Part shown: one piece after another, positions 2,556-38,750 of the stretch
Layout of the letters: every line of letters starts with the position of its first letter
Numbering within the stretch: position 1 is the first letter of the stretch
Assembly: GCA_029564025.1 (NCBI GenBank)
Contig: JAKQQT010000130.1
Location: forward strand, 1 to 39,773
DNA length: 39,773 nt
Direction of reading: 5' to 3'
Source: Armatimonadota bacterium
GTDB lineage: Bacteria > Armatimonadota > DTGP01 > JAKQQT01
Made by a program: the position numbers and the translations under genes
Notes under the pieces: model-generated
Told to the model about the DNA's origin: nothing
The model's input: only the letters and a program-made list of their open reading frames with translations
Database searches by the model: none

Positions 2556-3650
2556 TCAGCGGTTTGGTGAGAACGCGGTCAGTTCCGGAGCAACGCTTCC
2601 CGACAACATCGAGCGTGCAAGCAGTTCGGCGGTGTACGGCCCGAGCAGGATTCCGTTGCGGAAGTGACCTGTCGCCAGCCAGACGGTGTCTTGCCCCGGG
2701 GCGCGCCCCATCAACGGCATCACGTCGGACGAGCCCGGCCTCAAACCGGCCCATACAGCGCTGACCTCTGCTTGTGCCACTGCCGGGACCATGCGCAGTC
2801 CGCCGCGTATCACGGTGGTAATGCCCTCCACCGACGTTCGGCTGTCATAGCCGACCTCGTCCTGCGTGGAGCCAAGTAACAGCGTTCCGTCCGGCCACGG
2901 CACGGCGTATCCCGTGTAGGAGTACAGCACGTGGCGCACAAATGTCGGCAAGCCCTTCAACGCGACGATCTGCCCCCGAACGGGAAAAACGCGCGGCAAT
3001 TCCGGCATGAACTTGCGGAACCGGGCGGACCACGCGCCGGCGGCAATGACCACGGCTTCCGCCGGAACCGTTTCACCGGCAAGGTGAACCGTCACACCGT
3101 TCGCTCCATCCGTTACGATATCGTGAGCCTCGGTCCCTTCCCGAATCAAGGCGCCACATCGAACAGCCCCGTAACGATAAGCCTGCACCAGTTGGCGCGG
3201 AACGACCTGGCCTTCCATCGGCGACAGGATGGCGCTGAGCACTTCGCCGCCCAGAGCCGGTTCTTCTTTTCGGGCCTCTTCGGCGGTCAGACGGGAGTAG
3301 GGGAGTTTCGCCAGTTCGTACATCGGCAATGCGTTGTGGAACTTGGCTTCGTCCTCTTCGGTGAAGGCAATGCGAAGGATGCTCCTTCGGTTGTAGCCGG
3401 TTGAGACACCCGATACGTCTTCGATTTCGTTGACGGCGCTTTCATACATCCGGAGGCCGGCAACCACGGCGTCCAGGAACGGGCCGGGCTGTTTGGCTTC
3501 CGCGATTGGAGCCAGCATCCCGGCGGACGCGCCCGTGGCCTCCTCGCCAATCCGACCGCGTTCGAGCAGGGTCACTTCGGCTCCGCCCTTCGCCAGGTAA
3601 TACGCCACGGCGCAACCGGCAATGCCACCTCCGATAACTACAACCTTCAT
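2556..3650 (-). CDS. thiO: Glycine oxidase ThiO
   Basis: A 364-residue FAD enzyme of the D-amino-acid oxidase/DadA family. It oxidises glycine to iminoacetate (dehydroglycine) with oxygen, supplying the glycine-derived unit for ThiG in aerobic thiazole synthesis. The Rossmann FAD motif GGGIAG is at residues 7-12, followed by LLERG at the end of the second strand. The C-terminal FAD-binding part contains WAGLRPGSSDVMPLMG and the conserved GHFRNGILLGP (about residues 330-340). Length fits ThiO. It lies six bases after thiS and in one operon with thiG and tenI, which separates it from generic glycine/D-amino-acid oxidases. Use of ThiO rather than the radical-SAM ThiH implies an oxygen-using host. 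Confidence 0.93.
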   Translation of the reverse strand: MKVVVIGGGIAGCAVAYYLAKGGAEVTLLERGRIGEEATGASAGMLAPIAEAKQPGPFLDAVVAGLRMYESAVNEIEDVSGVSTGYNRRSILRIAFTEEDEAKFHNALPMYELAKLPYSRLTAEEARKEEPALGGEVLSAILSPMEGQVVPRQLVQAYRYGAVRCGALIREGTEAHDIVTDGANGVTVHLAGETVPAEAVVIAAGAWSARFRKFMPELPRVFPVRGQIVALKGLPTFVRHVLYSYTGYAVPWPDGTLLLGSTQDEVGYDSRTSVEGITTVIRGGLRMVPAVAQAEVSAVWAGLRPGSSDVMPLMGRAPGQDTVWLATGHFRNGILLGPYTAELLARSMLSGSVAPELTAFSPNR

Positions 3651-3854: not shown

Positions 3855-4483
3855 GGTACGCCTCCAATCGCCTTTGCCAGTTCGGAAGTCGCGAGGCCGG
3901 GATCGGGAGCGTCAGATATGGAACGTATGACCGCCACTCCAGCCGCGCCGGCCGCCATGCACATAGCGGCGTTCGCCGGGGTGATTCCCCCTATTGCGAT
4001 GACCGGCAAAGGCGATGGGCGGGACTCGGCGGCGGTGCACGCGTGCTTAAGCCCGCGCAAACCGGCTACGGGACCGCCCGGATGCGATTCCGAAGAAAAA
4101 ACGGTGCCGAATACCACGTAGTCGAGTTCGCGCTCGCCCAAAGCACCGGTCACCAGGTCGTCCCAGTGAATGGAACGTCCGATAATGGCATCCGGACCCA
4201 GGACGTCGCGCGCCTCCTCGGCCCTCGTGCCACGCGCCGGGAGATGCACACCGTGTGCCCGGGCTCTGTATGCCGCCAACACGTCTCCATTCACGATGAT
4301 CGGCACCTCCGGCCAGAAGTCGCGGAATTCCTCAATCCAGGCGATGCGTTCCTGCGTGGAAGCGGTTTTGTCGCGGTATTGGACGCATGTAAGTCCGTTG
4401 CGGATCGCCGAGAGCAAAACGTACGGCGTCCCGTGCGAGGACATTTCTGTGACCAGCATCAGTGCCGGCAATTCCAGTTTCAA
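3851..4483 (-). CDS. tenI: Thiazole tautomerase TenI / ThiE-family protein
   Basis: A 210-residue TIM-barrel protein of the ThiE/TenI family. Motifs in order: VQYRDK (34-39), IIVNG (62-66), HGVHLPARG (77-85), IIGRSIH (100-106), DYVVFGTVF (121-129), VIAIGGITP (161-169). The VNG (not IND), HLP and GRSxH forms and the SHPGG loop look like B. subtilis TenI, which aromatises the ThiG thiazole product, more than true thiamine-phosphate synthase. The catalytic His of B. subtilis TenI (in FGHVF) is Thr127 here, so ThiE or a divergent function remains possible. I chose TTG at 4483: it overlaps the thiG TGA, has AGGA five bases upstream, and gives family length; a longer reading would run into thiG. 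Confidence 0.85.
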   Translation of the reverse strand: MKLELPALMLVTEMSSHGTPYVLLSAIRNGLTCVQYRDKTASTQERIAWIEEFRDFWPEVPIIVNGDVLAAYRARAHGVHLPARGTRAEEARDVLGPDAIIGRSIHWDDLVTGALGERELDYVVFGTVFSSESHPGGPVAGLRGLKHACTAAESRPSPLPVIAIGGITPANAAMCMAAGAAGVAVIRSISDAPDPGLATSELAKAIGGVP

Positions 4484-5283
4484 TTGCGTCCTATCACTCC
4501 GGTCAGCGGACTGCTGGCACTGGCATAGGCTTTCATATCGATGCGTCCGGCTTCCCACGCGAGACGCCCGGCTTCAACACCCATGGCGATGGCCTTGCCC
4601 ATCGCGGCCGGGTCTTTTGCCTCGGCGATGGCGGTGTTCACAAGGCAGGCATCCGCGCCGAGTTCCATGGCGAACGCCGCGTCGCTGGGCGCTCCGATGC
4701 CGGCGTCAACGACAACCGGTATGTGTGCGTTTTCCACGATAATGGCAATCTGGCGCCACGTCACCAGTCCCTGTCCGCTCCCGATGGGAGACGCGAGCGG
4801 CATCACGGTGTGCGTGCCCATCTCTTCCAGCCGTTTCGCCAGAATCGGGTCCGCATTGATGTATGGAAGAACGGTGAAACCTTCATCCAGCAGAACCTTG
4901 CAGGCTTCCAGCGTGCCGACCGGATCGGGAAGCAGGTACTTGGGATCGGGAATGACTTCCACCTTCACCCAGTCGCTGAGGCCCATGGCGCGCGCCATGC
5001 GGGCTGTTTTTATTGCTTCCTCAGCCGTTCGTGAACCGGCGGTGTTCGGGAGAATCCGGTATTTCGACCAATCAATGAAGTCGAGGAGGGTCTTTTTCGA
5101 TGGGTCATCCAGGTCCAACCTTCGCAAAGCCACGGTGATGATTTCGGCGCCGGATGCCTCGATGGCGGCGTTCATTTCCTCGTTGTTGCGGTATTTGCCC
5201 GTTCCGACCATCAAGCGGGATTTTAACTCGACGCCGTTGATGACCAGACGGTTTTGACCCCCGTTGCCCGTGTTGTTTTTCAT
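4480..5283 (-). CDS. thiG: Thiazole synthase ThiG
   Basis: A 267-residue TIM-barrel enzyme that condenses 1-deoxy-D-xylulose 5-phosphate, dehydroglycine and ThiS-borne sulfur into the thiazole phosphate. Diagnostic motifs are SRLMVGTGKY near the N-terminus, ILPNTAGSRTAEEA, WVKVEVIPDPKYLLPD (Schiff-base lysine region), PLASPIGSGQG, and VVVDAGIGAPSDAAFAMELG near the phosphate-binding end. The ATG at 5283 is preceded by GGAG at nine bases; a GTG five codons earlier lies before that site and is unlikely. This is the first gene after the TPP riboswitch and terminator, so it is the direct target of thiamine control. Its stop overlaps the TTG of tenI. Confidence 0.96.
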   Translation of the reverse strand: MKNNTGNGGQNRLVINGVELKSRLMVGTGKYRNNEEMNAAIEASGAEIITVALRRLDLDDPSKKTLLDFIDWSKYRILPNTAGSRTAEEAIKTARMARAMGLSDWVKVEVIPDPKYLLPDPVGTLEACKVLLDEGFTVLPYINADPILAKRLEEMGTHTVMPLASPIGSGQGLVTWRQIAIIVENAHIPVVVDAGIGAPSDAAFAMELGADACLVNTAIAEAKDPAAMGKAIAMGVEAGRLAWEAGRIDMKAYASASSPLTGVIGRN

Positions 5284-5298
5284 CGATAAAGTCTCCAC

Positions 5299-5451: not shown

Positions 5452-5705
5452 ACGGCACACGGGGGTTCTTCTCTCATTTGGGCGTGATGCCGGCTCCGCC
5501 AGGTTCAAGTACGCACGCCGCATCCCCCGGCAATACCGCGTTTCTCTTCTTTTCGAGAAGGAGGGGTTGGGGTGGTTTTCGGGGGGATGTACATCGTTAC
5601 CACCCCTTGCCCCTCCTTGGTAAGGAGGGGCAAGGGTATGACCCTTTTACTGAGTTGTGTGCGCCGCTTGACCTATGGCGGTGGCGTTTCTTCTCTTAAG
5701 GCGAG
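5452..5705. other. Non-coding spacer between the thi operon and the 15-gene array
   Basis: About 250 bases without a supportable gene. The part next to the thi promoter (5452-5557) shows nothing recognisable apart from a CT-rich stretch with a small CTTCT/AGAAG hairpin near 5546-5560. The rest holds the repeat unit at 5558-5636. A 73-codon open frame on the plus strand exists here but has no ribosome binding site and largely translates the repeat, so I do not call it. Confidence 0.6.
5558..5636. repeat. Triple AAGGAGGGG inverted-repeat element
   Basis: Three copies of one motif lie in alternating orientation: AAGGAGGGGTTGGGGTGGT at 5558-5576 (plus), its near reverse complement at 5599-5618, and AAGGAGGGGCAAGGG at 5622-5636 (plus). 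The last two form a perfect 15-bp stem with a three-base loop (5604-5618/5622-5636). The first and second could pair instead, so two folds exclude each other. It lies downstream of the 5706 gene and may end or stabilise that long transcript, but neither strand has a T tract after the hairpin. A dispersed REP-like repeat is the alternative. Confidence 0.8.
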
Positions 5706-36467: not shown

Positions 36468-36513
36468 ACGGTCGGCTTACGGTCCTGTTAGAGGATACTT
36501 GATCCCGTATCAG

Positions 36514-36522
36514 TGCTATCAT
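36514..36522 (+). promoter_or_regulatory. Possible extended -10 upstream of lpxC
   Basis: TGCTATCAT (TGn plus TATCAT, five of six). Transcription would start about 36529, immediately ahead of the ATG at 36531, giving a leaderless lpxC message. Without a good -35 this is speculative. Confidence 0.3.
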
Positions 36523-36530
36523 CCAAAGAG

Positions 36531-37361
36531 ATGCAAGGCTTATCGCAATACACGCTTGCGGCGCCTGTGACGCTGGAAGGGATTGGACTGCACACGGGTC
36601 AACCGGTGCGCGTCGTGATTTCGCCCGGCCAGGATCGGCACATATCTTTCGTACGGGACGGCACGCGTATCCGGGCGGACCTGGATCACGTGGAGCAAAC
36701 GTCGCGTTGCACGTCGCTCGGACACAACGGAGCCGGTGTGGCCACCGTGGAGCATCTGATGGCAACGTTGTCCGCTTTCGGGGTGACATCCGCCGATTTG
36801 TGCGTGGACGGCCCTGAAGTGCCTATCATGGACGGAAGCGCCCGCGAGTTCGTGCGTTCGTTGCGGGGTGTGGGCTTGCTTGGTCTCTCCGGTTCCCGGC
36901 GTGTTCTGCGTCTTTCGTCGCCGGTCTGGCTGGAGGAAAACGGAAGTCATCTGCTGGCCGTGCCGAGCGACCGTTTTCGTGTGACCGCGGCAATCCGGTT
37001 TGAACATCCGCTGGTGGGCACTCAGATATCGGACGTATTGGTAGACGCAGGCACGTTTGAACACGAACTGGCGTCGGCGCGCACATTTGGTTTCGAAAGC
37101 GAACTGGAGGAACTGGCGCGTCGCGGACTTGCCCTGGGTGGATCTCTGGAGAATGCCGTGGTGTTCTTCAATGACAAGACATCCACACCTTTGCGGTATC
37201 CGGATGAACCCGTTCGTCACAAGGCTGTCGACCTCATCGGGGACCTGGCTTTGCTGGGCGCCATGCCGCAAGCGCATATTTTTGCACTGAGACCCAGTCA
37301 TCGACTGAATATAGAGTTCGCCAGACGGCTTCGACAGAACGGAGTCGTCTCCGAGGCGTGA
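36531..37361 (+). CDS. lpxC: UDP-3-O-acyl-N-acetylglucosamine deacetylase LpxC
   Basis: A 276-residue zinc enzyme for the committed step of lipid A synthesis. Zinc ligands by motif: H75 in TVEHLMA, H230 and D234 in RHKAVDLIGD; catalytic Glu74; H257 in ALRPSHRLNIEFA. EGIGLHTG (16-23), VPIMDGSA (98-104) and ARTFGF (183-188) also match. Length is at the short end of the family. ATG at 36531 gives the standard short N-terminus but lacks a spaced ribosome site; GTG at 36513 is the alternative start. In some phyla LpxC is fused to FabZ; here they are separate genes. Confidence 0.96.
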   Translation: MQGLSQYTLAAPVTLEGIGLHTGQPVRVVISPGQDRHISFVRDGTRIRADLDHVEQTSRCTSLGHNGAGVATVEHLMATLSAFGVTSADLCVDGPEVPIMDGSAREFVRSLRGVGLLGLSGSRRVLRLSSPVWLEENGSHLLAVPSDRFRVTAAIRFEHPLVGTQISDVLVDAGTFEHELASARTFGFESELEELARRGLALGGSLENAVVFFNDKTSTPLRYPDEPVRHKAVDLIGDLALLGAMPQAHIFALRPSHRLNIEFARRLRQNGVVSEA

Positions 37362-37401
37362 GAAATCCGGGCGTTTGTCCGGAGCATATCGACATCCAGG
37401 C

Positions 37402-37470
37402 CCGCGCGCGATGACGCGCGGTTATCAGCGTTCCGTGCGCGATGGCGCACCCGCATACGGTTGTATGCGG
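37402..37470 (+). other. Three tandem stem-loops in the lpxC-fabZ spacer
   Basis: Three perfect hairpins in a row: 37402-37421 (7 bp, loop CGATGA), 37435-37450 (6 bp, tetraloop GATG) and 37451-37470 (8 bp, CCGCATAC/GTATGCGG, tetraloop GGTT). The second and third abut with no spacer and could stack. They end 27 bases before the fabZ ATG. There is no T tract, so it is not a plain terminator. A structured leader or mRNA-processing element is likely; no known family was recognised. Confidence 0.7.
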
Positions 37471-37497
37471 CAAGAACGAGAAAGAGAGTATCTTTCC

Positions 37498-37944
37498 ATG
37501 CTGGACACGGAGCAGATTCGCCGTATCCTACCGCATCGTTACCCCTTCCTGCTGGTCGACCGCATTCTTGAAATCGATCCCGGCAAAAGCGCCGTCGGAT
37601 TGAAGAATGTGACCTGCAACGAACCCTTCTTCCAGGGGCACTGGCCTCACAAGTCTGTCATGCCTGCCGTCCTTCTCCTTGAATCGATGGCGCAGGTGGC
37701 CGGGGTGATGCTCCTTTCAATGGACAATAACGCCGGAAAGAATCCCTACTTTGCCGGAATCGACAAGTCCAGATTCCGCAAGCCGGTGGTGCCGGGCGAC
37801 ACGCTGATCATCTCCACAAAGGTTCTCCGATTGAAGACCACCTTCGGACGTGTTTTCGTGGAAGCACGTGTTGAAGGTGCAGTAGTCGCCGAGGCCGAGA
37901 TGATGTTCGCGCTGGCGCCGGATGAGTTGGAGGTCGCAAAATGA
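37498..37944 (+). CDS. fabZ: (3R)-hydroxyacyl-ACP dehydratase FabZ
   Basis: A 148-residue hot-dog-fold dehydratase of type II fatty-acid synthesis. Motifs: ILPHRYPFLLVDRI (10-23), NEPFFQGHWP with catalytic His48, LLLESMAQ with catalytic Glu62, YFAGIDKSRFRKPVVPGD and a final AEMMFAL. The usual 'PGVLI' is PAVLL here (Gly to Ala). The ATG at 37498 gives the standard N-terminus; the open frame extending to 37375 crosses the hairpin region and is not expected to be translated. It overlaps lpxA (ATGA). Hydroxyacyl-ACP is shared between FabZ and LpxA/LpxD, explaining the clustering. Confidence 0.96.
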   Translation: MLDTEQIRRILPHRYPFLLVDRILEIDPGKSAVGLKNVTCNEPFFQGHWPHKSVMPAVLLLESMAQVAGVMLLSMDNNAGKNPYFAGIDKSRFRKPVVPGDTLIISTKVLRLKTTFGRVFVEARVEGAVVAEAEMMFALAPDELEVAK

Positions 37945-38750
37945 CAAACGTACATCCAAGCGCCATGGTCGATCCTTCCGCCCGTCTGGGCGATAACGTG
38001 GAGATAGGCCCCGGATCCATCATCGGTCCGGACGTCGATCTTGGAGAAGGCACCATCATCGGACCGCACGTGGTCATCAAACGCTGGACACGATTGGGCA
38101 TCAACTGCCGCGTGGAAAGCGGTTGCGTACTCGGCGGGGAGCCGCAGGACTTCAAATACGCGGGCGAGCGGACTTACCTTCTCATCGGCAACAACAATAT
38201 CATCCGCGAGTTCACCACCATCCACCGCGCCACAGGCGAAGGCATGGCTACCGAGATTGGCGACAACAACCTTATCATGGCGTACTGCCACATAGGCCAT
38301 AACTGCAATATCGGCAGTCGCGTGACGATGGCCAATATGGTCGGCATCAGCGGCCACGTGGTCATCGAGGACAGGGTGGTGTTTGGAGGGATGGTCGGTG
38401 TTCACCAGTTTGTCCGTTTCGGGCGTCTGGCGATGGTGGGCGGATTCAGCAAGGTGGTGCAGGACGTGCCGCCGTATATGATGGCGGACGGAAGACCGAG
38501 CCGCGTTTACGGACTGAACGTGCTCGGCCTGAGGCGCGCCGGTGTGATGACCGCCACAAGGGCGGGTTTGAAGCAGGCGTACAAGTTCATCTACCGGTCG
38601 GACATGAATCTGAGCCAGGCGATTGAGGCTATCGAGACCGAAGTCGATCCGAGTGACGAGCGCGACTACCTGCTCGATTTCCTTCGAAATGTTCGCCTCG
38701 GTTTCGGAGGGCGGCAGTTGGATCCGAACCGTCCTCAATCCCGTGAGTAG
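37941..38750 (+). CDS. lpxA: UDP-N-acetylglucosamine acyltransferase LpxA
   Basis: A 269-residue left-handed beta-helix enzyme for the first step of lipid A synthesis. Hexapeptide repeats from residue 3 on (VHPSAMVDPSARLGDNVEIG). The catalytic His is H120 in AYCHIGHNCNIG (H117 also conserved), GVHQFVRFG (153-161) and VVQDVPPYMMADG match the acceptor loop and signature. The C-terminal helical domain (about 190-260) is present, with NVLGLRRAG. Length 269 is typical. It overlaps fabZ by four bases and is followed by lpxB. Confidence 0.97.
   Translation: MTNVHPSAMVDPSARLGDNVEIGPGSIIGPDVDLGEGTIIGPHVVIKRWTRLGINCRVESGCVLGGEPQDFKYAGERTYLLIGNNNIIREFTTIHRATGEGMATEIGDNNLIMAYCHIGHNCNIGSRVTMANMVGISGHVVIEDRVVFGGMVGVHQFVRFGRLAMVGGFSKVVQDVPPYMMADGRPSRVYGLNVLGLRRAGVMTATRAGLKQAYKFIYRSDMNLSQAIEAIETEVDPSDERDYLLDFLRNVRLGFGGRQLDPNRPQSRE

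Follow-up and report, generated by a model that had tools for sequence, protein, structure and literature searches.

The 136-nt spacer between lpxC and fabZ of an uncultured Armatimonadota bacterium contains four perfect hairpins in close succession. This clustering of hairpins is genuine and unusual, although a few such places are expected per whole genome. As far as the compared genomes show, it appears to be private to this lineage. We tentatively read it as a lineage-specific intercistronic hairpin cluster, a putative mRNA decay barrier or partial terminator that would limit initiation at fabZ.

Gene order and hairpins between lpxC and fabZ

The window, the whole 39,773-nt stretch of DNA analysed, is contig C53 of a 3.87-Mb uncultured genome in 756 contigs, which its assembly rating gives as 92% complete and 6.39% contaminated. 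Given this contamination, part of the 507 kb analysed below may be foreign. The plus strand carries lpxD, lpxC, fabZ and lpxA in this order, and all four families were confirmed by profile search. The features of the junction are as follows.

36513..37361, plus strand, lpxC (UDP-3-O-acyl-GlcNAc deacetylase); TIGR00325, 216.6 bits against a cutoff of 187.25
37362..37497, plus strand, lpxC-fabZ spacer of 136 nt that holds the hairpin cluster
37366..37383, plus strand, weak extra stem-loop, 7 pairs including one G-T, loop of 4, 5 nt past the lpxC stop
37402..37421, plus strand, hairpin 1, arms 37402-37408/37415-37421, 7 bp perfect, loop CGATGA (6 nt)
37429..37478, plus strand, possible closing helix CGTTC/GAACG round hairpins 2 and 3 (three-way junction), from the MFE fold
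37435..37450, plus strand, hairpin 2, arms 37435-37440/37445-37450, 6 bp perfect, loop GATG (4 nt)
37451..37470, plus strand, hairpin 3, arms 37451-37458/37463-37470, 8 bp perfect, loop GGTT (4 nt)
37480..37496, plus strand, hairpin 4, arms 37480-37485/37491-37496 (GAAAGA/TCTTTC), 6 bp perfect, loop of 5
37498..37944, plus strand, fabZ with ATG start at 37498; TIGR01750, 177 bits against a cutoff of 155.15
37941..38750, plus strand, lpxA, first 4 nt shared with fabZ; Shine-Dalgarno sequence GGAGGT

The lpxC stop is the TGA at 37359-37361. Its start is uncertain, with GTG at 36513 giving the longest frame and ATG at 36531 being possible. The 4-nt overlap of fabZ and lpxA, together with the short or overlapping lpxC-fabZ junctions of most of the 67 relatives described below, speaks for one operon. 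Read in the fabZ frame, the spacer scored -0.18 per codon, compared with +0.22, +0.21, and +0.08 for fabZ, lpxA, and lpxC, respectively, and it looks non-coding. Consensus scans of 37362-37497 found no G+C-rich stem followed by a U run on either strand, the mark of a classical intrinsic terminator, and a simple scan limited to the sigma-70 type found no promoter.

A preliminary description of this DNA had reported three stems of 7, 6, and 8 bp, the last two abutting, in non-coding DNA between lpxC and fabZ. The arms of hairpins 1 to 3 were recovered exactly and the placement held. Hairpin 4 is additional to these three, with a single base between its end and the fabZ ATG. The hairpins are separated by 13, 0, and 9 nt, and hairpins 1 and 2 start 41 and 74 nt past the lpxC stop, respectively. 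An in-frame ATG at 37465 lies inside the 3' arm of hairpin 3. The four hairpins comprise 27 pairs, every one of them Watson-Crick.

Folding in a 1-kb context gave pair probabilities of 0.99-1.0, 0.98-1.0, and 0.97-0.99 for hairpins 2, 3, and 4, respectively, and of about 0.6 for most pairs of hairpin 1. The closing helix reached only 0.08-0.3. The stem-loop at 37366-37383 appeared in the fold of the spacer alone and had pair probabilities of 0.0 in the 1-kb context.

Hairpin 4 covers the purine-rich stretch at the expected Shine-Dalgarno position, so that the purines upstream of the fabZ ATG are paired. fabZ has no canonical Shine-Dalgarno sequence, the longest match to the consensus being 4 bases (AAAG). 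Matches of at least 5 bases preceded 97 of 266 starts of the genome, compared with 142 of 2000 random places, a moderate signal. As the other 169 starts had matches of at most 4, the weak fabZ site alone is unremarkable.

Hairpins 1 and 2 resemble each other. Positions 37402-37417, in hairpin 1, and 37433-37448, round hairpin 2, are identical at 14 of 16 bases. This direct repeat was reached in none of 400 shuffles, whose maximum of 13 occurred in 8. One compensated pair separates the two stems, 37405 C-G 37418 in hairpin 1 and 37436 T-A 37449 in hairpin 2. The unpaired C and A of hairpin 1 (37409/37414) correspond to the C-G pair 37440-37445 of hairpin 2, and hairpin 2 lacks an equivalent of the two outer pairs of hairpin 1. 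This pattern suggests a local copy in which the stem was kept or improved, for which the single compensated pair is slim evidence.

Hairpin frequency by chance and across the genome

Perfect hairpins were defined by a stem of at least 6 bp and a loop of 3-8 nt, and their number was compared with 20,000 dinucleotide shuffles. Four hairpins in the spacer (37362-37497) were reached in 0/20,000 shuffles and three in 10/20,000, while the segment 37402-37470 alone gave three in 4/20,000; the site was chosen by eye, which discounts these statistics. Folding energy depended on the stretch. The one tested first, 37380-37490, had a z of -1.55, with 14 of 200 shuffles folding at least as well. The whole spacer and 37398-37497 had z values of -3.0 and -3.5, with 6 and 4 of 1000 shuffles as good, respectively. 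The opposite strand folds as well (z -3.5). Ten simulated 39.8-kb windows of order-1 random sequence contained one cluster of three hairpins within about 75 nt, and some are accordingly expected in a whole 3.9-Mb genome.

The survey of the bacterium's own genome covered 507,249 bases, window included, with 176 spacers. Elsewhere in these 507 kb, three hairpins fell within about 100 nt at four places, three of which are wholly or mostly coding. With gene calls from a custom codon-usage script, a non-standard gene finder, the lpxC-fabZ spacer ranked first in hairpin density among 120 same-strand spacers 50-500 nt long, with 29.4 hairpins per kb compared with 13.0 for the runner-up. Three other same-strand spacers also contained four hairpins, but over 316-457 nt. 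The observed numbers of perfect hairpins were 72, 21, and 16 in same-strand, convergent, and divergent spacers, compared with 26.6, 6.5, and 8.0 after shuffling, respectively. The larger excess in same-strand and convergent spacers than in divergent ones points to use at RNA ends or boundaries. Non-coding DNA held 2.98 perfect hairpins per kb and coding DNA 1.53, as divided by an ORF script that missed fabZ.

The survey also recorded hairpins of other kinds. Those of the GGGGCAC...GTGCCC type recur in the genome, at L105:14763-14790, L215:2444-2464, and L214 near 2983-3003. The exact pattern GGGGCACN{3,12}GTGCCCC was present in 2 of 222 loci of the genome, and L214 has a shorter arm. They may form a dispersed family of their own, unrelated to the cluster between lpxC and fabZ. 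In another same-strand spacer, L214:2984-3079, several hairpins succeed one another, and the final one (GGCCCTGAAGGGCC) follows AAGGAG and stands right at an ATG. The window also has a perfect hairpin of 15 bp at 5604-5636.

Relatives, copies and known families

FabZ matches were found in 97 other genomes, and one upstream stretch each was taken from 88 of them (29 + 59 loci), with 9 genomes omitted. An extra stretch from G073 belongs to a second FabZ of an already counted genome and brought the total to 89. In 67 of the 89 stretches, lpxC lies upstream of fabZ, with a median spacer of 21 nt. Perfect hairpins were absent from 61 of these 67 spacers, single in 4, and at least two in number in 2 (L169 and L174). 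Neither was accepted as a comparable leader. In L169 the spacer is 508 nt long and an acetyltransferase-like frame separates lpxC from fabZ, and the 303-nt spacer of L174 holds a tandem-repeat-like frame on the same strand as lpxC. A comparable hairpin leader was thus found in none of the 67 phylum relatives with lpxC upstream of fabZ. The acetyltransferase-like frame (L169:494-969) belongs to genome G067, and another genome of that genus, G096 (L162), has an equal 508-nt gap.

In the only genome of the same family, G001, the spacer measures 40 nt, contains AGGAGG ahead of a TTG start and lacks any perfect hairpin. Among 46 loci from named genomes, lpxC was in line with fabZ in 17, and none of these 17 showed a perfect spacer hairpin. 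Ten of them overlap by more than 400 nt and were taken as fused lpxC-fabZ.

The leader was compared with known RNA families and with other DNA. No Rfam family reached its threshold in the spacer, in agreement with the preliminary description, which knew of no matching family. A search of 37330-37520 at E up to 10 returned one sub-threshold match, IRES_n-myc, at 10.8 bits against 40. The sole window match above threshold is a TPP riboswitch elsewhere (RF00059, 5336-5440, minus strand, 79.5 bits with a threshold of 54.3), which lies shortly upstream of the frame 4480-5298 on that strand. The alignment behind covariance model R1 consisted of one sequence entered twice (effective number 0.6), which makes it a single-sequence model. 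Within the own genome, with E values allowed up to 10, this model found the window only. Across 291 phylum genomes, with E no higher than 0.01 and with stricter filters, it found only the window's genome and none of the 290 others. The regulatory RNA or processing site proposed earlier thus fares unevenly, as the hairpins exceed chance but any sign of a conserved structured regulatory RNA is missing from the 67 relatives and the 290 genomes.

BLAST of the leader against the own genome found no second copy. The lone other match with E below 0.25 (C357:5653-5696, E 4.6e-4, 80% over 44 nt) lies inside a methyltransferase-like frame, and further matches were shorter, with E of at least 0.25. The 12-mer core GYGCGATGRCGC occurs at 9 places in the genome, 2 of them in this spacer, compared with 1 for the reversed control. 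Inspection of the other 7 places revealed no hairpin array. REP/BIME-type repeats are neighbouring palindromes in intergenic space. The cluster resembles them in having neighbouring intergenic palindromes, two of them alike, but it differs in being single in the genome. A dispersed palindromic (REP-like) repeat, an outcome that would have counted against the preliminary description, was rejected, as BLAST, the core search and the covariance model gave no such repeat. A mobile origin was also rejected, with no leader match in plasmids and phages at E 0.01.

ANTAR targets are dual hairpins whose two loops each have 6 nt and share conserved positions 1 and 4, which are A and G in the RNA tested (PMC3369931). 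Our cluster likewise has two adjacent hairpins with similar loops, and the loop of hairpin 1 has 6 nt. However, the loops CGATGA and GATG do not fit that description, and this assignment was rejected. Our literature search found no paper on an RNA element in an lpxC-fabZ spacer; one paper, PMC3087551, mentions lpxC-fabZ.

Possible origins and roles of the cluster

Several explanations compete for the cluster. Nearly as likely as a role at the boundary between the two genes is a neutral by-product, in which template switching or slippage in an unconstrained spacer would have created functionless palindromes, with hairpin 1 or 2 being copied. The perfect Watson-Crick arms and the equal folding of both strands are compatible with such a DNA-level origin. 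The 14/16 repeat, the absence of the cluster from all relatives examined, a spacer above their 21-nt median, and the roughly twofold hairpin density of non-coding over coding DNA also favor it. However, it requires four separate stems of unlike sequence within 100 nt, and both the compensated pair between the two similar hairpins and the smaller hairpin excess in divergent spacers, which points to RNA ends, argue against it. Unlikely by comparison is a cluster acting mainly as a U-less intrinsic terminator that ends the lpxC unit, leaving fabZ-lpxA to read-through or an unrecognized promoter. According to Gupta and Pal 2021 (PMC8355165), hairpin clusters can serve as intrinsic terminators with stems of 2-10 bp, less than 15 nt apart and usually at most 80 nt from the stop, and a U-trail is unnecessary. 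The genes here are co-oriented, the three gaps are all below 15 nt, and hairpins 1 and 2 both start within 80 nt of the stop. Like those clusters, ours has several 6-8 bp stems close after a stop, with no U-tract. On the other hand, that study examined inter-operon regions, whereas the lpxC-fabZ cluster lies inside an apparent operon. The spacer scans gave neither a U-tract terminator nor a sigma-70-like promoter for such an arrangement, and the fabZ/lpxA overlap and the lpxC-fabZ order, kept with short or overlapping junctions in most of the 67 relatives, speak for one operon.

Some explanations assign the spacer a more specific activity. A recent, lineage-private leader, where hairpin 4 and a three-way junction formed by hairpins 2 and 3 would jointly control the fabZ start and so balance lipid A against fatty-acid synthesis by RNA at the lpxC-fabZ junction, is quite improbable. 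Still less credible is a cis-regulatory switch (riboswitch, protein-bound leader or RNA thermometer) that would sense acyl-ACP or lipid status and open hairpin 4 for fabZ. Sensor RNAs normally show sequence conservation, unlike this element, which has no Rfam match above threshold, no second genome copy, and no match in the 290 other phylum genomes. The possible three-way junction would suit a switch, but its closing helix is weak in the 1-kb context. The paired purines before the fabZ ATG also fit, as does the E. coli background, where LpxC and FabZ compete for one substrate and their balance matters, according to PMC4651636. Least probable of all is that hairpins 1 and 2 form a double-stranded DNA operator pair or that the spacer encodes an N-terminal FabZ extension. 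The two palindromes are near-identical and 31 nt apart, yet the sigma-70-type scan offered no promoter-like site to control, and the core GYGCGATGRCGC occurs elsewhere in the genome without a hairpin array. No stop interrupts the fabZ frame in the spacer, but its codon score there is negative and FabZ of the same-family genome begins at nearly the same residue.

A decay barrier or partial terminator is inferred from the hairpin excess in same-strand and convergent spacers and from the spacer scans, which showed neither a U-tract terminator nor a sigma-70-like promoter. The shuffle results (0/20,000 for four hairpins, z of -3.0 to -3.5) and pair probabilities of at least 0.97 for hairpins 2-4 favor this role. 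Weighing against it are the absence from the relatives examined, the first z of only -1.55, and the weaker pairing of hairpin 1 and the closing helix in context. In this mechanism, the genes lpxD-lpxC-fabZ-lpxA would be transcribed together, and the cluster would separate the fates of the lpxC and fabZ parts. It could stop 3'-5' exonucleases and preserve the lpxC 3' end, end a share of transcripts after lpxC, or both, while hairpin 4 would restrict ribosome loading on fabZ. The expected outcome is an LpxC:FabZ ratio unlike that of a plain two-gene operon, and sensing of a signal would be unnecessary.

Such a role has a counterpart in E. coli. There, stable hairpins without a U-tract bound operon segments that decay differentially, for example malE-malF, as reported in PMC5927463. 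The lpxC-fabZ spacer likewise holds stable hairpins and no U-tract, between operon genes possibly needed in unequal amounts. Many of the E. coli protective hairpins in that source are conserved and many lie in coding sequence, whereas our cluster is absent from the relatives examined.

We offer as a proposal that the cluster may control the LpxC/FabZ balance. If it does act at this boundary, a plain hairpin cluster would adjust the output of two substrate-competing enzymes in a little-studied lineage, a finding of modest weight. It would gain greater importance only if related strains keep the stems under selection or if the stems respond to lipid state.
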